64,000 bases of DNA from Bacteroidota bacterium (GTDB lineage: Bacteria > Bacteroidota > Bacteroidia > Bacteroidales > Prolixibacteraceae): contig JAJRSD010000018.1 of the NCBI GenBank assembly GCA_024278975.1, positions 124,001 through 188,000 on the forward strand. Direction: 5' to 3'. A program made the translations under genes and the position numbers. This document shows, piece after piece, positions 1-4,642 of the stretch; positions within the stretch are counted from its first letter, which is position 1, and every line of letters starts with the position of its first letter. Below the pieces are notes generated by a model that saw only the letters and a list, made by a program, of their open reading frames with translations, was not told the origin of the DNA and did not search any database.

Positions 1-912
1 TTATTTTCTAACCCGTAAAAACAGATTTATTCCTAATGGTTCTTGCAATACATCGATTTTAGATTCTTCTATTCCTGCCTGAAGTGCAAATTTTGTAAGT
101 TCATCAACAGAACGATGATAGAGAAACCAGTCACAAAGTATTTCCATACTCCTGCGCGAGGGATTTTCCACATTAAAATTCCCAATTATCATTTCGCCAC
201 CTTCGTTTAAATATTCGTAATATTTTTTTACAAGGAATACAAAATGTTTACCCTTGAAATAGTCGAATAACCCGGCACTCCAAATCAAATCGTATTTTTT
301 TTCCGGTGTATATCTAATTACATTTCTATTAAGAAAAGTCATTCGATCCAGATATTTCCTGTTTTTGTTTTTGGCGTAGGCGATTGCTCTTTTATCCATG
401 TCGAGCATATCGAAAACAAGGGAACTATCAGGATTTTTTCCAAAAAACTCAAAGGTTTCGGTTACCGGACCACTACCTAAAATCAACACATCTTTTTTTA
501 ATCCAATTGCTTTATCATTAAGTTCTTCGAAAATTTTAATTGCCAGAGTCTTCCTATTTCTAACCGCCAATACTGCTGGTGTTAACTGAAAAAACATATC
601 CCATTTCCTAATCTTTTCATCCTGACTGAGATAGAATTGATATATTTTTTCAATAATGAAAAAATCGCCGCTATAACCAAATGGTTTGGTATGCGCAAAA
701 CCAATTAAAGTGTGCCTATTAAAAAGTGAAGATACTAGTGATCGAAAATATTCAATATCTTCGGCCTTAACCTGATCCATCAAAGCAAAAAGATATGGTA
801 ACTCCTCTTCATCAGGCCCATTTTTTGCAAAAAGATTCTCGATATAAGCTTCAATATCAATATTTTTAATGTCCATATTCGGAACCATTTCTATATCTAC
901 GCTACTATTCAT
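1..912 (-). CDS. PhcB-like SAM-dependent methyltransferase
   Basis: Class I SAM-dependent methyltransferase fold. An N-terminal helical part of about 130 residues carries a KPFGYSGD motif (about residues 77-84), resembling the GYAGD motif of proteins annotated as extracellular factor 3-hydroxypalmitic acid methyl ester biosynthesis (PhcB type). The SAM-binding glycine loop LGSGP follows at about 146-150, then an acidic strand (LDMDKRA). I start at the ATG at 912-910; a TTG one codon upstream is also open. The ATG overlaps the ancestral stop of the preceding LytTR gene (ATGAATAG), which implies translational coupling. It is the last gene of a five-gene two-component operon. The fold is well supported. 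The substrate (perhaps a fatty acid or acyl thioester) is inference from family and context. Confidence 0.75.
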   Translation of the reverse strand: MNSSVDIEMVPNMDIKNIDIEAYIENLFAKNGPDEEELPYLFALMDQVKAEDIEYFRSLVSSLFNRHTLIGFAHTKPFGYSGDFFIIEKIYQFYLSQDEKIRKWDMFFQLTPAVLAVRNRKTLAIKIFEELNDKAIGLKKDVLILGSGPVTETFEFFGKNPDSSLVFDMLDMDKRAIAYAKNKNRKYLDRMTFLNRNVIRYTPEKKYDLIWSAGLFDYFKGKHFVFLVKKYYEYLNEGGEMIIGNFNVENPSRRSMEILCDWFLYHRSVDELTKFALQAGIEESKIDVLQEPLGINLFLRVRK

Positions 913-1054
913 CAACTATCTCTCCAAGTTCACTATTAATACTCTTCAATAGATACTTGTACTCTGCATCAACAGTAATTACGCTCATTTTATCGGCAAT
1001 AATAACCTCAGGATATTTTACTGCAAATACTTTAGAACTGTTAATAACAAATTG
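905..1054 (-). pseudogene. Detached C-terminal tail of the LytTR domain
   Basis: 49 codons in the same frame as the response regulator, separated from it only by the TAA at 1057-1055 and ended by TAG at 907-905. The translated stretch begins QFVINSSKVF and ends GEIVDE, matching the end of a LytTR domain. The old TAG overlaps the methyltransferase ATG, as expected for an originally intact, coupled gene. It has no start codon of its own near the break. Confidence 0.7.
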
Positions 1055-1681
1055 TTAGCTTACTCGTACAAATTTATTTTTTGGGAAGAACTCGATAAGT
1101 TCCGAGAATGGTTTTTTTGTGGAAACCTCCTCGTCGAACATGTGAATTACTGTTTGGTCATCATCTTTTTCGATAAAATATACATCATCAATATTTATCT
1201 TTTCGAGCCCTTGACTCGCATGAACAATAATTTGATTTTTTTCGTGGTCTTTCAGATCAAAAAATGTGTTAAACTGCTCACTTTCGAACTTGAGTTTCAG
1301 GTCGTTACCGAATTTAAAAATAGCTATTTCAATATTTGTCTGTAAATCTTTATCAGTAAACGGTTTAATAATATAACCGTATGGGAGTGCAACTTTTGCT
1401 TTATTTACAGTGGCAATGTCGGCATTTGCAGTTAAGTAAATAATCGGGACATCGTGTTTTTGCGTAATAATACTGGCAGCTTCAATACCGGTCATTTCGT
1501 CTTTCAAATTTATATCCATCAACACTAAATCTGGTAAACTTTTCTCAACCTCTTCTATTGCCTTTTTTCCTGTGTCAACAATTTTTTGTATGGTATAACC
1601 AAGGCTTTCAAGACTTTCTTCAATATCGGTTGCGACTAATATTTCGTCTTCGACAATTAAAATTTTGTATTTTGTATTCAT
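1055..1681 (-). CDS. LytTR-type response regulator, prematurely terminated
   Basis: Receiver domain (about 5-120, phosphoacceptor Asp56 in LVLMDINLK, conserved Lys in IIKPFTD), then a LytTR DNA-binding domain from about residue 150. The reading frame ends at a TAA (1057-1055) directly after FVRVS, exactly where LytTR proteins continue with a basic or polar residue and then Y/F-I-V-N. The same frame downstream encodes the missing tail (QFVINSSKVFAVKYP...) up to TAG at 907-905. As written the protein is 208 aa and lacks the last beta-strands of the DNA-binding domain. It lies 12 bases after the receiver-kinase gene and probably acts as the transcriptional output of this operon. A point mutation, stop readthrough or sequencing error could explain the stop. 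Confidence 0.8.
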   Translation of the reverse strand: MNTKYKILIVEDEILVATDIEESLESLGYTIQKIVDTGKKAIEEVEKSLPDLVLMDINLKDEMTGIEAASIITQKHDVPIIYLTANADIATVNKAKVALPYGYIIKPFTDKDLQTNIEIAIFKFGNDLKLKFESEQFNTFFDLKDHEKNQIIVHASQGLEKINIDDVYFIEKDDDQTVIHMFDEEVSTKKPFSELIEFFPKNKFVRVS

Positions 1682-1693
1682 TCGTAAAGTTAT

Positions 1694-2755
1694 TTAAAAG
1701 GTGATTGTAAATTTTGTTCCGTTTGAAAAATCATTTTGCAGTATTCCATCTATTTGTTGCACTAATTTGTGTAAAATCTTCATCCCTAACGACTTGGTTT
1801 TTGTTATATCAATATGGTCGGGTATTCCAATCCCATCATCGCTCACAATTAGTTGGTATTTTTTGTCGGGTAACTCTTTGAAAGAAATACTTATTTGCCC
1901 GATAGAATTTCCATTAAATGCATATTTGAATGAATTTGAAATTAGCTCATTAATTATCAGACCACATGGAATAGCGGTATCAATTGAAAGATAAGCATCT
2001 TCCATTTGATAATTGAACTTAATAATTGTTGATTGATTTGAGTATGTTCTGGCAATATTTCCGGTTAAACTTTTAATATAATTCGCAAATTTAATATTTG
2101 CCAGACTCTCGTTATTATACAAATTTTCGTGAATTAGTGCCATTGTGTGAATCCTGTTTTGGCTCTCCTGCAGGATATCTTTAAGTTTCGGATCTTCAAT
2201 ATTCCTACTTTGCATTCGTAATATGCTCGATATAATTTGCATATTATTTTTCACACGATGATGAACTTCTCGGAGCAAAACATCTTTCTCTTCGAGAGAC
2301 TTTTTTAGATACTCTTCTGCTTCCCTGCGCTTTTTCTCCTTGCGTTCAAGTTCCCATTTCATTAGGGTAATACCTGCAAATTCATCTATTAGCGACAGAA
2401 GTTTTTTTGCTTCAACGGGTTTCATTAAATACCCATCAATACCAAGATGAATGGATTCAACAAAACTGTCTTTTTCGCTATATGCCGACATTACCACAAA
2501 TTTAGCTTCGGGAGCTATTTTTTTTATCTCCTTAACCATCTCAAGCCCGTTCATAACCGGCATAACCATATCGGTAATTACCAGGTCGGGCTTGTGCTTT
2601 TGGTATAATTCCAAACCATGGTATCCATCTTTGGCAATGTATAAATGGCTAATGTGTTTTTCTAAAATTCTCCTGTATAACTGTCTTATTGTCTCGTTAT
2701 CATCGACAAAAAGCACTGAAATATTATATCGTTGCCCCGGTTCTTGCTCTCTCAT
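1694..2755 (-). CDS. Receiver domain fused to HisKA_2 histidine kinase
   Basis: Hybrid signalling protein: an N-terminal receiver (about 12-125, acidic pair DD18-19, phosphoacceptor Asp62 in ITDMVMP, Lys112 in LMKP), a short coiled coil, then a HisKA_2 dimerisation domain with HHRVKNN at 165-171. The C-terminal HATPase_c has the N box (IINELISNSFKYAF) and the G1 box DDGIGIP. There are no membrane segments, so it is cytosolic. A receiver with a kinase output resembles Ralstonia PhcR. Its ATG shares one base with the stop of the upstream receiver gene (TAATG), so the two are translationally coupled. It probably relays phosphate from the membrane kinase to the LytTR regulator, which is inference from architecture and order. 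Confidence 0.88.
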   Translation of the reverse strand: MREQEPGQRYNISVLFVDDNETIRQLYRRILEKHISHLYIAKDGYHGLELYQKHKPDLVITDMVMPVMNGLEMVKEIKKIAPEAKFVVMSAYSEKDSFVESIHLGIDGYLMKPVEAKKLLSLIDEFAGITLMKWELERKEKKRREAEEYLKKSLEEKDVLLREVHHRVKNNMQIISSILRMQSRNIEDPKLKDILQESQNRIHTMALIHENLYNNESLANIKFANYIKSLTGNIARTYSNQSTIIKFNYQMEDAYLSIDTAIPCGLIINELISNSFKYAFNGNSIGQISISFKELPDKKYQLIVSDDGIGIPDHIDITKTKSLGMKILHKLVQQIDGILQNDFSNGTKFTITF

Positions 2756-3177
2756 TATTTTATGATTTTTTTTACAAACTGCTTATTAATAATGTCAATT
2801 AGTTTAGAGGAAACTATTGGTTTAAAAATAACATCATCACAACTTGACAATGAGATATCGTCGTACGCATCGCCCATTACACTGGCAGTTTGTATAACAA
2901 TTGAAATATCGGGGGCTATTTGTTTTATTATTTTTGTTGCCTGAATTCCATCCAATACCGGCATACGAATATCCATAAGTATTAAATCCAGGTCTTTATG
3001 ATCTTCAACATAATCTATGGCTTCTTGTCCGTTTTTTAGCCAAATAATATTTGCATTCGTTTTTCGTAGCTGAGTTTTTATCAAAACAAAGTTTATCTCA
3101 GTGTCGTCAACAACTACTATCGTTTTATCCTTCCAGTTATATTCCATTTTTTTTCGGTTAACTATTTTGTTTGTCAT
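2755..3177 (-). CDS. Single-domain response regulator (receiver)
   Basis: 140-aa stand-alone CheY-like receiver with the acidic pair DD24-25, phosphoacceptor Asp69 in LILMDIRMP and a C-terminal FKP lysine motif. No output domain follows, so it would act by protein contact or phosphotransfer. The ATG at 3177 overlaps the end of the upstream kinase gene by 20 bases and has a weak AGGA just before it. A second in-frame ATG at 3147 (MEYNWKDK) would start 10 bases after the kinase stop and gives a more usual receiver N-terminus, so the start is uncertain. Confidence 0.85.
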   Translation of the reverse strand: MTNKIVNRKKMEYNWKDKTIVVVDDTEINFVLIKTQLRKTNANIIWLKNGQEAIDYVEDHKDLDLILMDIRMPVLDGIQATKIIKQIAPDISIVIQTASVMGDAYDDISLSSCDDVIFKPIVSSKLIDIINKQFVKKIIK

Positions 3178-4642
3178 TTCCTACATAGAGTTTAAATGAG
3201 AATTTTGAGCCAACATTTAATTTACTCTGTACACGAATATTACCTCCCATTAATTTAAGATATGTTTTTGTTATGGCCAGCCCTAATCCTGTGCTTTCGC
3301 GCCCCAAAGTTCTACTTGTAGAAGCTTGCATAAATCTATCGAAAACATATTTCTGATCTTCTTTTTTAATACCTATTCCGGTATCTTTTACGTAGAATTT
3401 TAATAAATCATCTTTTAGTGTATAACCAAAGTCGATACTTCCTTCATCTGTATATTTACAAGAGTTACTAACTAAATTTATTAGTATCTGTTTAAGTCGA
3501 ATCCTGTCGGTATAAATAAGAGATTCATCATCTTCCAATCCATTTTTATAGCTTAATTTAAGATTATTATTTACAACGTTTTTATCCTTGCAAAACATAT
3601 CATAAATCTCTTTAGTCAAAACATTTAAATCGAATTCACTTTTTTCAATTTTCAATATACCGGCTTCAATTTTAGAAAGGTCAATTATATCATTTATCAG
3701 ATTAAGCAGATGCTCTCCATTTTTAATGATAATATCAATAAATTCATCTAACTCTTTTTCGTCTTCTACGTCGCGTAATAAATTTGCAAATCCAAGAATC
3801 CCATTCATTGGAGTCCGTATTTCGTGACTCATATTAGCCAAAAATGCAGATTTAAGCATGTCGGATTCTTCCGCTTTATCTTTTGCTATAATTAATTCTT
3901 TTTCTATTAAGACTCTTTGATCAATTTCGTTTTTCAGATCTATATTTCTCGAATTTAGCAGTCTTGTTCTATCTTCAACTTTATCTTCCAAATTTTTATT
4001 TGCCTCCTCAATCTCTGCATTGTTTCGCTCTATTTGTAAGTAGAGGCTAAAATTCTGTCTGTTAAATTTTTCGTTACTATATGCAGCAAACATACTTATA
4101 ATAATTGCCGCAATAAAAAAGAATCCATTTGATACGACAACAATAAAATCGACATTATTACTAAGGGCGGCAATTATGTAAATAAATACTGCGAACCAGC
4201 TTCCCACCGAAAACAATATAAACCTAAGTCTTACAAGTACTGCACCGGAAAGAAAAACAAGTACTAATCCTCCACTATAAACTATTGCTTCGGGGAGTTT
4301 TACTAACATAATTATAATACCAATGGAAGCTATTATATATAAAACCAGAAGCAGCAGTTGCCAATATCGAATAAAACCTTTAGAGTAAGATAGCGCAACA
4401 ACAAAAAGGAAAGTAGGTACTACAATTATACGAATAAGAATAAAAAATCGGAACAATTCTCCTGCAACAATACTGTCTAAATATCCAAAAAAGATATAAA
4501 TTACGGAAACAACAATTATTGCAAATCTTGATATTTTTATTGAACTATCGAAAAAATAACTTCGATATTCTCTCTCCCTTTCGTCAGGAAAGTTAAGGGA
4601 TATTGGGTTTAATTTACCTTTGTACTCTGTCCTAGAATCCAT
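3158..4642 (-). CDS. Six-TM membrane histidine kinase
   Basis: Sensor kinase with about six hydrophobic segments between residues 39 and 187, a coiled coil (about 195-262), HisKA with the phosphoacceptor in NMSHEIRTPMNG (His273), and HATPase_c with N box (LVSNSCKYTDEG), G1 (DTGIGI) and G2 (GLGLAI). There is no C-terminal receiver; the receivers are separate downstream genes. A six-helix sensory region without a large periplasmic loop suggests a membrane-embedded or hydrophobic signal, as in PhcS, CqsS or LqsS. It is the first gene of the five-gene operon. The ligand cannot be read from the sequence. Confidence 0.88.
   Translation of the reverse strand: MDSRTEYKGKLNPISLNFPDEREREYRSYFFDSSIKISRFAIIVVSVIYIFFGYLDSIVAGELFRFFILIRIIVVPTFLFVVALSYSKGFIRYWQLLLLVLYIIASIGIIIMLVKLPEAIVYSGGLVLVFLSGAVLVRLRFILFSVGSWFAVFIYIIAALSNNVDFIVVVSNGFFFIAAIIISMFAAYSNEKFNRQNFSLYLQIERNNAEIEEANKNLEDKVEDRTRLLNSRNIDLKNEIDQRVLIEKELIIAKDKAEESDMLKSAFLANMSHEIRTPMNGILGFANLLRDVEDEKELDEFIDIIIKNGEHLLNLINDIIDLSKIEAGILKIEKSEFDLNVLTKEIYDMFCKDKNVVNNNLKLSYKNGLEDDESLIYTDRIRLKQILINLVSNSCKYTDEGSIDFGYTLKDDLLKFYVKDTGIGIKKEDQKYVFDRFMQASTSRTLGRESTGLGLAITKTYLKLMGGNIRVQSKLNVGSKFSFKLYVGNDKQNS

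Follow-up and report, generated by a model that had tools for sequence, protein, structure and literature searches.

The first 4,642 nucleotides of a 64,000-nucleotide stretch of DNA from a member of the Bacteroidota (family Prolixibacteraceae; G000:C23:124001-188000, the whole of which is called the window; genome of 4.65 Mb in 115 contigs) are filled by five tightly packed open reading frames (ORFs) on the minus strand, which encode a methyltransferase (MT), a receiver-LytTR response regulator, a receiver-kinase, a single receiver and a sensor histidine kinase with six transmembrane (TM) segments. The five genes form one discrete cassette, which is real, conserved and self-contained and is best explained as a transferable signalling unit. 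The gene order is not a product of chance, because the same order recurs in relatives, and the cassette is regarded as a discrete unit because it is present or absent as a whole between the same two flanking genes. It may constitute an unstudied cell-to-cell signalling system, recurring in many Bacteroidota and in green sulphur bacteria, and the chances are even that it serves as a module for making and sensing an acyl methyl-ester-like signal.

Organization of the cassette

The original prediction, made from the sequence of the window, described five packed minus-strand genes, and the ORF list for positions 1-4642 bears this out:

1..915, minus strand: MT (class I S-adenosylmethionine (SAM)-dependent methyltransferase), 304 amino acids (aa) if started at TTG, 303 if started at the ATG of codon 2
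908..1054, minus strand: remainder of the LytTR gene 3' of the stop, still in frame, 49 codons, the final ones overlapping the MT start
1055..1681, minus strand: response regulator, receiver and LytTR, 208 aa, with an in-frame TAA (1055-1057) in the middle of LytTR
1694..2755, minus strand: receiver and HisKA_2/HWE-type histidine kinase, 353 aa, without a membrane part or DNA-binding domain, PhcR-like in composition
2755..3177, minus strand: receiver of a single domain, 140 aa; many relatives have it fused to the kinase
3158..4642, minus strand: six-TM sensor histidine kinase (HisKA and HATPase), 494 aa, sensor at about residues 20-215

The Pfam domains found were HisKA with HATPase in the kinase, a receiver domain in the lone receiver, a receiver domain together with HisKA_2 and HATPase in the receiver-kinase, and a receiver with a partial LytTR in the regulator, the MT giving generic methyltransferase matches only. 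The kinases and receivers carry the phospho-acceptor and ATP-site motifs. The predicted six-TM histidine kinase agrees with the six hydrophobic segments at the N-terminus of this protein and its HisKA and HATPase domains, and the domain compositions of the lone receiver and the receiver-kinase hybrid were likewise found as proposed. All five genes are under purifying selection, as judged by the ratio of non-synonymous to synonymous substitution (dN/dS) against the nearest relative, which was 0.09 for the kinase, 0.13 for the receiver, 0.03 for the receiver-kinase and 0.04 for the MT; these values are rough, synonymous sites being near saturation.

Recurrence in other genomes

In a motif-based scan of 84,980 species, each represented by one genome, 450 relatives of the MT were found, the best 80 of which were fetched and are the basis of the neighbourhood counts. 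The arrangement of the window, type A, was found at 33 of these 80 loci and consists of the kinase with a split or fused receiver, the receiver-kinase, the receiver-LytTR regulator and the MT; the kinase is visible in 27 of the 33, the other six loci beginning at contig starts. Type B (31/80) has the order MT, kinase with receiver, receiver; type C (5/80) consists of a kinase with receiver and the MT; and type D (1/80), from a Chlorobiaceae metagenome-assembled genome (L150), combines a kinase carrying two receivers with the MT. An arrangement like type D was also present in genomes of one family code (L160-L164), one of them with an identical MT; in L163 two LuxN-like hybrid kinases lie in tandem beside the MT. 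The remaining ten loci were left untyped, eight of them being near contig ends or cut by them.

Absence of the MT gene beside the kinases in relatives would have counted against the original prediction; instead, a two-component gene on the same strand adjoins the MT in 75 of the 80 best relatives (72, plus three with contig-cut sensor genes), while three of the other five lie at contig edges and two clearly have no such neighbour. Two-component neighbours were seen for 0 of 28 background genes, a sample too small to weigh. The MT itself is rare, occurring in 12 of 395 genomes of the phylum sample at E <= 1e-10, the own genome included. In the class sample of 295 genomes a full-length MT was found only in the window genome and G349, 21 others giving short, weak matches. 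A genome of the same genus (G011, locus L038) contains a distant lone MT without kinase neighbours, near a gene cluster of the menaquinone type, the pathway being judged by eye.

Presence and insertion site among relatives

Two sets of relatives were used, both including the window's own genome (61, the own plus 60, and 41, the own plus 40). The genome searches scored only the best first-look candidates of each genome (at most 5 for the MT and 8 for the sensor in the phylum sample, and 34 for the receiver-kinase in the 61 genomes), and the counts may be low. The MT was found at >=40% identity in 13 of the 61 genomes, five others having only short or weak matches (E <= 0.001). Genomes of the same genus repeat the order kinase, receiver, receiver-kinase, receiver-LytTR, MT. 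The receiver-kinase was matched at E <= 1e-60 in nine of the 61 genomes, in all of which a type A MT stands beside it; in a tenth type A genome, G019, the MT is located at a contig start.

The genes flanking the cassette, an exonuclease and a FAH-family gene, lie on one contig in 28 of the 41 genomes. They are 10-206 bp apart in 23 of the 28, and 4,872-5,044 bp apart, with the cassette in between, in four (G000, G012, G017 and G023). In G020 the flanking genes are adjacent and the cassette is found elsewhere in the genome. No convincing flanking repeats of an insertion were present among those listed. The names of the flanking genes (exonuclease, FAH, thioesterase, globin) were read by eye. 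The FAH-family gene downstream was considered as a part of the system and rejected, since it directly adjoins the exonuclease gene without the cassette in the 23 genomes mentioned. One genome of the 28 has 1,686 bp between the two flanking genes (G006:C1:764900-766585).

The methyltransferase

The MT contains the motif KPFGYSGD, including the GYSGD that was originally reported as a mark of PhcB-type proteins. The motif is thus present, but it is not specific for such proteins: K-P-x-G-Y-x-G-D was invariant in 19 of 19 sequences of the family alignment, which includes MTs without a histidine kinase among their listed neighbours, the plasmid gene tables being incomplete. The AlphaFold model (pLDDT 92.8, pTM 0.89), considered at the level of secondary structure only, predicts that the N-terminal part is helical up to about residue 136 and that a core of alternating strands and helices comes after it. 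The family profile matched 29 solved chains, of which 17 bear the names of small-molecule methyltransferases (10 of them phosphoethanolamine methyltransferases); ten have generic names, and two act on protein, namely a CheR and a protein lysine methyltransferase. The matched stretches cover essentially the SAM core, and no close relative was seen among solved structures. The MT of a Phc-like locus on a Paraburkholderia graminis plasmid gave no match among solved structures. A search of PHROGs gave no match.

Nine loci of family members on plasmids were read. A kinase partner is present at two of these loci (Paraburkholderia, Pseudanabaena) and an acyl context at two (Enterobacter, Deinococcus), the remaining five showing neither. 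On an Enterobacter ludwigii plasmid (L236:6583-9720) a ketosynthase-acyl carrier protein (KS-ACP) polyketide synthase protein has a family MT as its C-terminus (146 bits); bits are quoted here and for Paraburkholderia because the profile E-values refer to sets of 2 and 7 proteins, respectively. On a Deinococcus actinosclerus plasmid (L233:1392-4750) the genes for a fatty acid desaturase, for an N-acyl amino acid synthase of the FeeM type, for another methyltransferase and for a family MT overlap or abut. The plasmid contexts, the matches to solved chains and the MT model favour a small acid as the substrate.

Some further features of these plasmid proteins may be recorded. The family MT domain of the Enterobacter ludwigii KS-ACP protein occupies the place expected for a releasing domain, and the Deinococcus actinosclerus MT carries the annotation CheR. 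The MTs of Rhizobium (L231, L232) and Roseateles (L159) adjoin genes with GGDEF or EAL domains (cyclic di-GMP genes); on inspection by eye, the glycine motif for SAM binding seems altered in these MTs.

The sensor domain

The AlphaFold model of the window sensor has six helices (pLDDT 91.1, pTM 0.83). The sensor profiles of types A, B and C match one another at an HH probability of 100%, and the MT-linked kinase of Pseudanabaena matches these profiles at 93-98%. A weak match was obtained for the PhcS-like sensor of Paraburkholderia (type A 37%, type B 43%, type C 14%), while the Chlorobiaceae sensor showed no profile similarity to that of the window (probability 0.3%). Sub-threshold matches to Pfam MASE8 were given by the Paraburkholderia kinase (E 0.0044) and by L110 (E 0.11), and none by L126.

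The sensor domain was found in 17 of the 61 genomes of the relatives set and in 15 of the 395 phylum genomes. Its presence was associated with that of the MT in the 61 genomes (11/13 with the MT vs 6/48; Fisher p 1.8e-6, kinship uncorrected), and the MT and sensor distances co-vary (r 0.60 for type A, 0.88 for type B), a correlation which does not separate partnership from shared descent. The idea that the sensor is exclusive to MT loci was rejected on account of 25 sensor loci (L206-L230), mostly kinases, whose stretches, as far as they extend, contain no family MT up to five genes away. Possibly the sensor kinases at these loci eavesdrop or are general membrane sensors. At one of them (L215) a match to the methyltransferase profile lies two genes from the sensor, on the other strand, and another, in a genome of the same genus (G009, locus L207), is a lone sensor kinase near a menaquinone-type gene cluster, with the pathway again judged by eye.

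The interrupted LytTR regulator

The original prediction assigned a direct DNA output to a LytTR regulator. The composition, a receiver followed by LytTR, was recovered, but not an intact domain: the ORF ends after residue 208, and the Pfam LytTR match covers just 3-52 of 98, so a complete LytTR DNA-binding domain is absent from the window regulator and the direct output is broken in this genome. Past the TAA the frame stays open for 49 further codons, which resemble the C-terminal half of the LytTR domain of relatives. The receiver-LytTR gene beside the MT encodes 243-274 aa in 31 of 32 relatives, the 32nd (L106, 219 aa) starting at a contig start, and in the relative L077 LytTR was matched at 3-94 of 98, as compared with 3-52 in the window. 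The dN/dS of the regulator against the nearest relative was 0.04 before the stop and 0.10 after it. Because the other four genes are open (0.03-0.13) and the stretch past the stop is conserved, the break is taken to be either very recent or an assembly error.

No conserved operator emerged when nine sequences upstream of the kinase gene were footprinted; only a short stretch was common to four (the window, L077, L078 and L079), and inspection by eye showed no LytTR-type repeat. Promoter matches were at chance level (2 found vs 1.7 expected).

Proposed function and alternatives

From the unit, its recurrence, the homologies and motifs and the interruption described above, we infer the following course of events. 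The MT would produce a hydrophobic signal that is small and diffusible, the most likely reaction being methylation of the carboxyl group on a fatty-acyl acid or a related one. This signal would be sensed in the membrane by the six-TM kinase, and phosphate would pass from the kinase to the lone receiver, from there to the receiver-kinase and on to the receiver-LytTR regulator, which would bind DNA at its target genes. In the window genome this last step has probably been lost, because the LytTR domain is interrupted. If the product of the MT feeds the sensor, the MT and the kinase are expected to stay linked even where the gene order changes and where the six-TM sensor is of one kind or another, as is the case; the most economical view is that the kinase responds to this product as its signal, at about even odds. 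It is tempting to go further and speculate that the Bacteroidota, the Chlorobiota and at least one cyanobacterium harbour a large and so far unstudied family of signalling systems based on acyl methyl esters, in which one MT family is combined with exchangeable six-TM kinases, those with the sensor family of the window and the LuxN-like ones. Phc of Ralstonia would in that case be one betaproteobacterial branch of the family, and the sensor kinases without an MT could be eavesdroppers. This broader proposal is somewhat more doubtful than plausible.

Several observations weigh against such a signalling function. Two of the 80 MT relatives (L153 and L156) are those that clearly stand without a two-component neighbour, the sensor occurs with no family MT nearby at the 25 inspected loci (10 in relatives, 15 in the phylum sample), and the five plasmid loci without kinase or lipid context come from Roseateles, Rhizobium (two), Aureimonas and Pantoea. 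The Paraburkholderia sensor matches the family of the window weakly (14-43%) and does not match the Pseudanabaena sensor (0.6%, single sequences). The yardstick for Phc is the Paraburkholderia Phc-like locus, in which the third gene has no counterpart to the kinase part of PhcR, and the window MT shares only 23.5% identity over 251 residues with its PhcB-like protein, with long branches between them. Finally, the LytTR domain is broken in the window itself.

Some of these points suit a different explanation, in which the MT is the output of the system and methylates an envelope lipid or metabolite under a relay that senses the state of the membrane, no signal passing between cells. Given the loci without the MT, the sensor may respond to something general, for instance the state of the membrane; acyl-chain genes surround two family members, and the MT comes after the regulator in the type A order. 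However, the MT and the kinase remain partners in types A, B, C and D although the gene order varies and two kinds of six-TM sensor occur, and the family is linked to a Phc-like locus. We give this explanation about half the weight of a signal made by the MT. Less probable still is an adaptation step with the CheR-like logic of chemotaxis, in which the MT would methylate the kinase or a receiver. The closeness of the MT to kinase genes, its weak CheR profile match below the cut-off (E 0.038) and the two protein-acting enzymes among the solved chains speak for it; the latter are nevertheless far outnumbered by the 17 chains with names of small-molecule enzymes and the ten generic ones, all matched essentially over the SAM core, there is no methylesterase domain in the cassette, and family members occur in polyketide and N-acyl amino acid contexts.

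The in-frame LytTR stop, which is found in the window only, might also mark an inactive system, the cassette being a decaying relic in the course of loss from the lineage. This is improbable, since none of the four remaining genes is interrupted, their dN/dS being 0.03-0.13, and the stretch past the stop is conserved, at a value (0.10) read with synonymous sites near saturation. An ordinary housekeeping MT lying beside kinases by chance would be compatible with the merely generic Pfam matches and with the distant relative in G011, which has no kinase neighbours and lies near the menaquinone-type cluster (by eye). Such an enzyme is hardly to be reconciled with an MT found in just 13 of 61 genomes at >=40% identity, with two-component adjacency in 75 of the 80 best relatives or with a cassette that one site either holds whole or lacks altogether, and it was rejected on the grounds of adjacency and patchy presence.

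Significance

Few quorum systems dedicated to a small molecule are known from the Bacteroidota. In a survey of gut genomes, luxS was reported in 263 Bacteroidota species, with no autoinducer-2 (AI-2) receptor genes in that phylum (PMC12503165); the window genome gave no LuxS match. Among the papers listed by full-text searches on phcB/PhcS-type systems and on Bacteroidota quorum sensing, none describes such a cassette, as far as titles, beginnings of abstracts and passages of one paper show. If the MT makes the signal, communication across the phylum could be tested for by mass spectrometry of cassette carriers, and Phc would appear as one instance within a wider scheme.

Comparison with known systems

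Likeness to Lqs, which had been suggested together with Phc, was not upheld. The five cassette genes contain no LqsA/CqsA-type pyridoxal phosphate-dependent synthase domain at E <= 0.1, the search having covered these genes and not the rest of the genome, and the sensor does not resemble that of the LuxN-like Chlorobiaceae kinases, which served as an indirect comparison in place of CqsS and LqsS themselves. With regard to LuxN-type systems, the neighbour of the MT relatives in Chlorobiaceae is a six-TM hybrid kinase with two receivers. For the two such kinases tested the best NCBIfam model was LuxN (333 and 282 bits, cut-off 1550), the match covering the kinase and receiver, not the sensor; as to the sensor, that of the window differs, with a profile probability of 0.3%.

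The Pseudanabaena PCC 7367 plasmid locus (L158) has a family MT beside a kinase 27% identical to that of the window over 480 aligned positions including the sensor. It differs from the cassette in that the MT and kinase are on opposite strands and in that its listed genes include one receiver and neither a LytTR gene nor a receiver-kinase. The regulator has the receiver and LytTR composition of LytTR response regulators of the AgrA/AlgR type; the domain is full in relatives, whereas that of the window is interrupted.

A further comparison is with Phc (phcBSRQ of Ralstonia and Cupriavidus; methyl 3-hydroxymyristate or 3-hydroxypalmitate), which shares the MT family, a six-TM kinase and a soluble receiver-kinase in one gene run. 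The plasmid row of Paraburkholderia graminis used for it comprises an MT (468 aa), a kinase (445), a receiver (134) and a receiver protein (344). The lengths printed in PMC8578825 are 464-468 aa for PhcB, 368-374 for PhcR and 336-337 for PhcQ; PMC6989110 reports PhcB R22 and PhcQ R154 as conserved in Ralstonia, Cupriavidus and Paraburkholderia, and PMC11960443 gives H230 of PhcS. By position, not alignment, the Paraburkholderia locus has R22 (PhcB R22), R157 (PhcQ R154, +3) and H233 (PhcS H230). PhcS L161 has no counterpart at that place in the kinase (F161 after L160), and the third gene is without the kinase part of PhcR. The locus is taken as Phc-like from its order, lengths and a few residues; it served as the yardstick for the MT and the kinase in place of Ralstonia sequences and is not a tested PhcB.

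The kinship of the MT with PhcB, as originally proposed, was supported, since the window MT finds the Paraburkholderia PhcB-like protein (tblastn E 2e-13, plasmid collection) and the MT profile scores it at 119.6 bits, placing both in the same family. The two share the invariant residues of this family, which extends beyond PhcB. In a quick tree of 99 MTs the PhcB-like protein falls outside the Bacteroidota/Chlorobi rows (SH-aLRT 86-87), very long branches making its place unsure. The receiver-kinase, having no DNA-binding domain, matches PhcR by the description printed in PMC8578825, not by sequence, and the six TM segments have a similar spacing in the window kinase and the Paraburkholderia PhcS-like kinase. 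The MT family and the receiver-kinase composition of the supposed Phc-like set hold, while the link to PhcS is weak (14-43%) and the MT departs from PhcB in length and in its 23.5% identity. The window MT (304 aa) is without the PhcB N-terminal region of about 185 residues, the cassette has no PhcQ-like receiver protein, and it adds a lone receiver and a receiver-LytTR regulator; the sensor similarity is only weak. Because the N-terminal region of PhcB and PhcQ are missing, the cassette is not a member of Phc, yet it would work like it.

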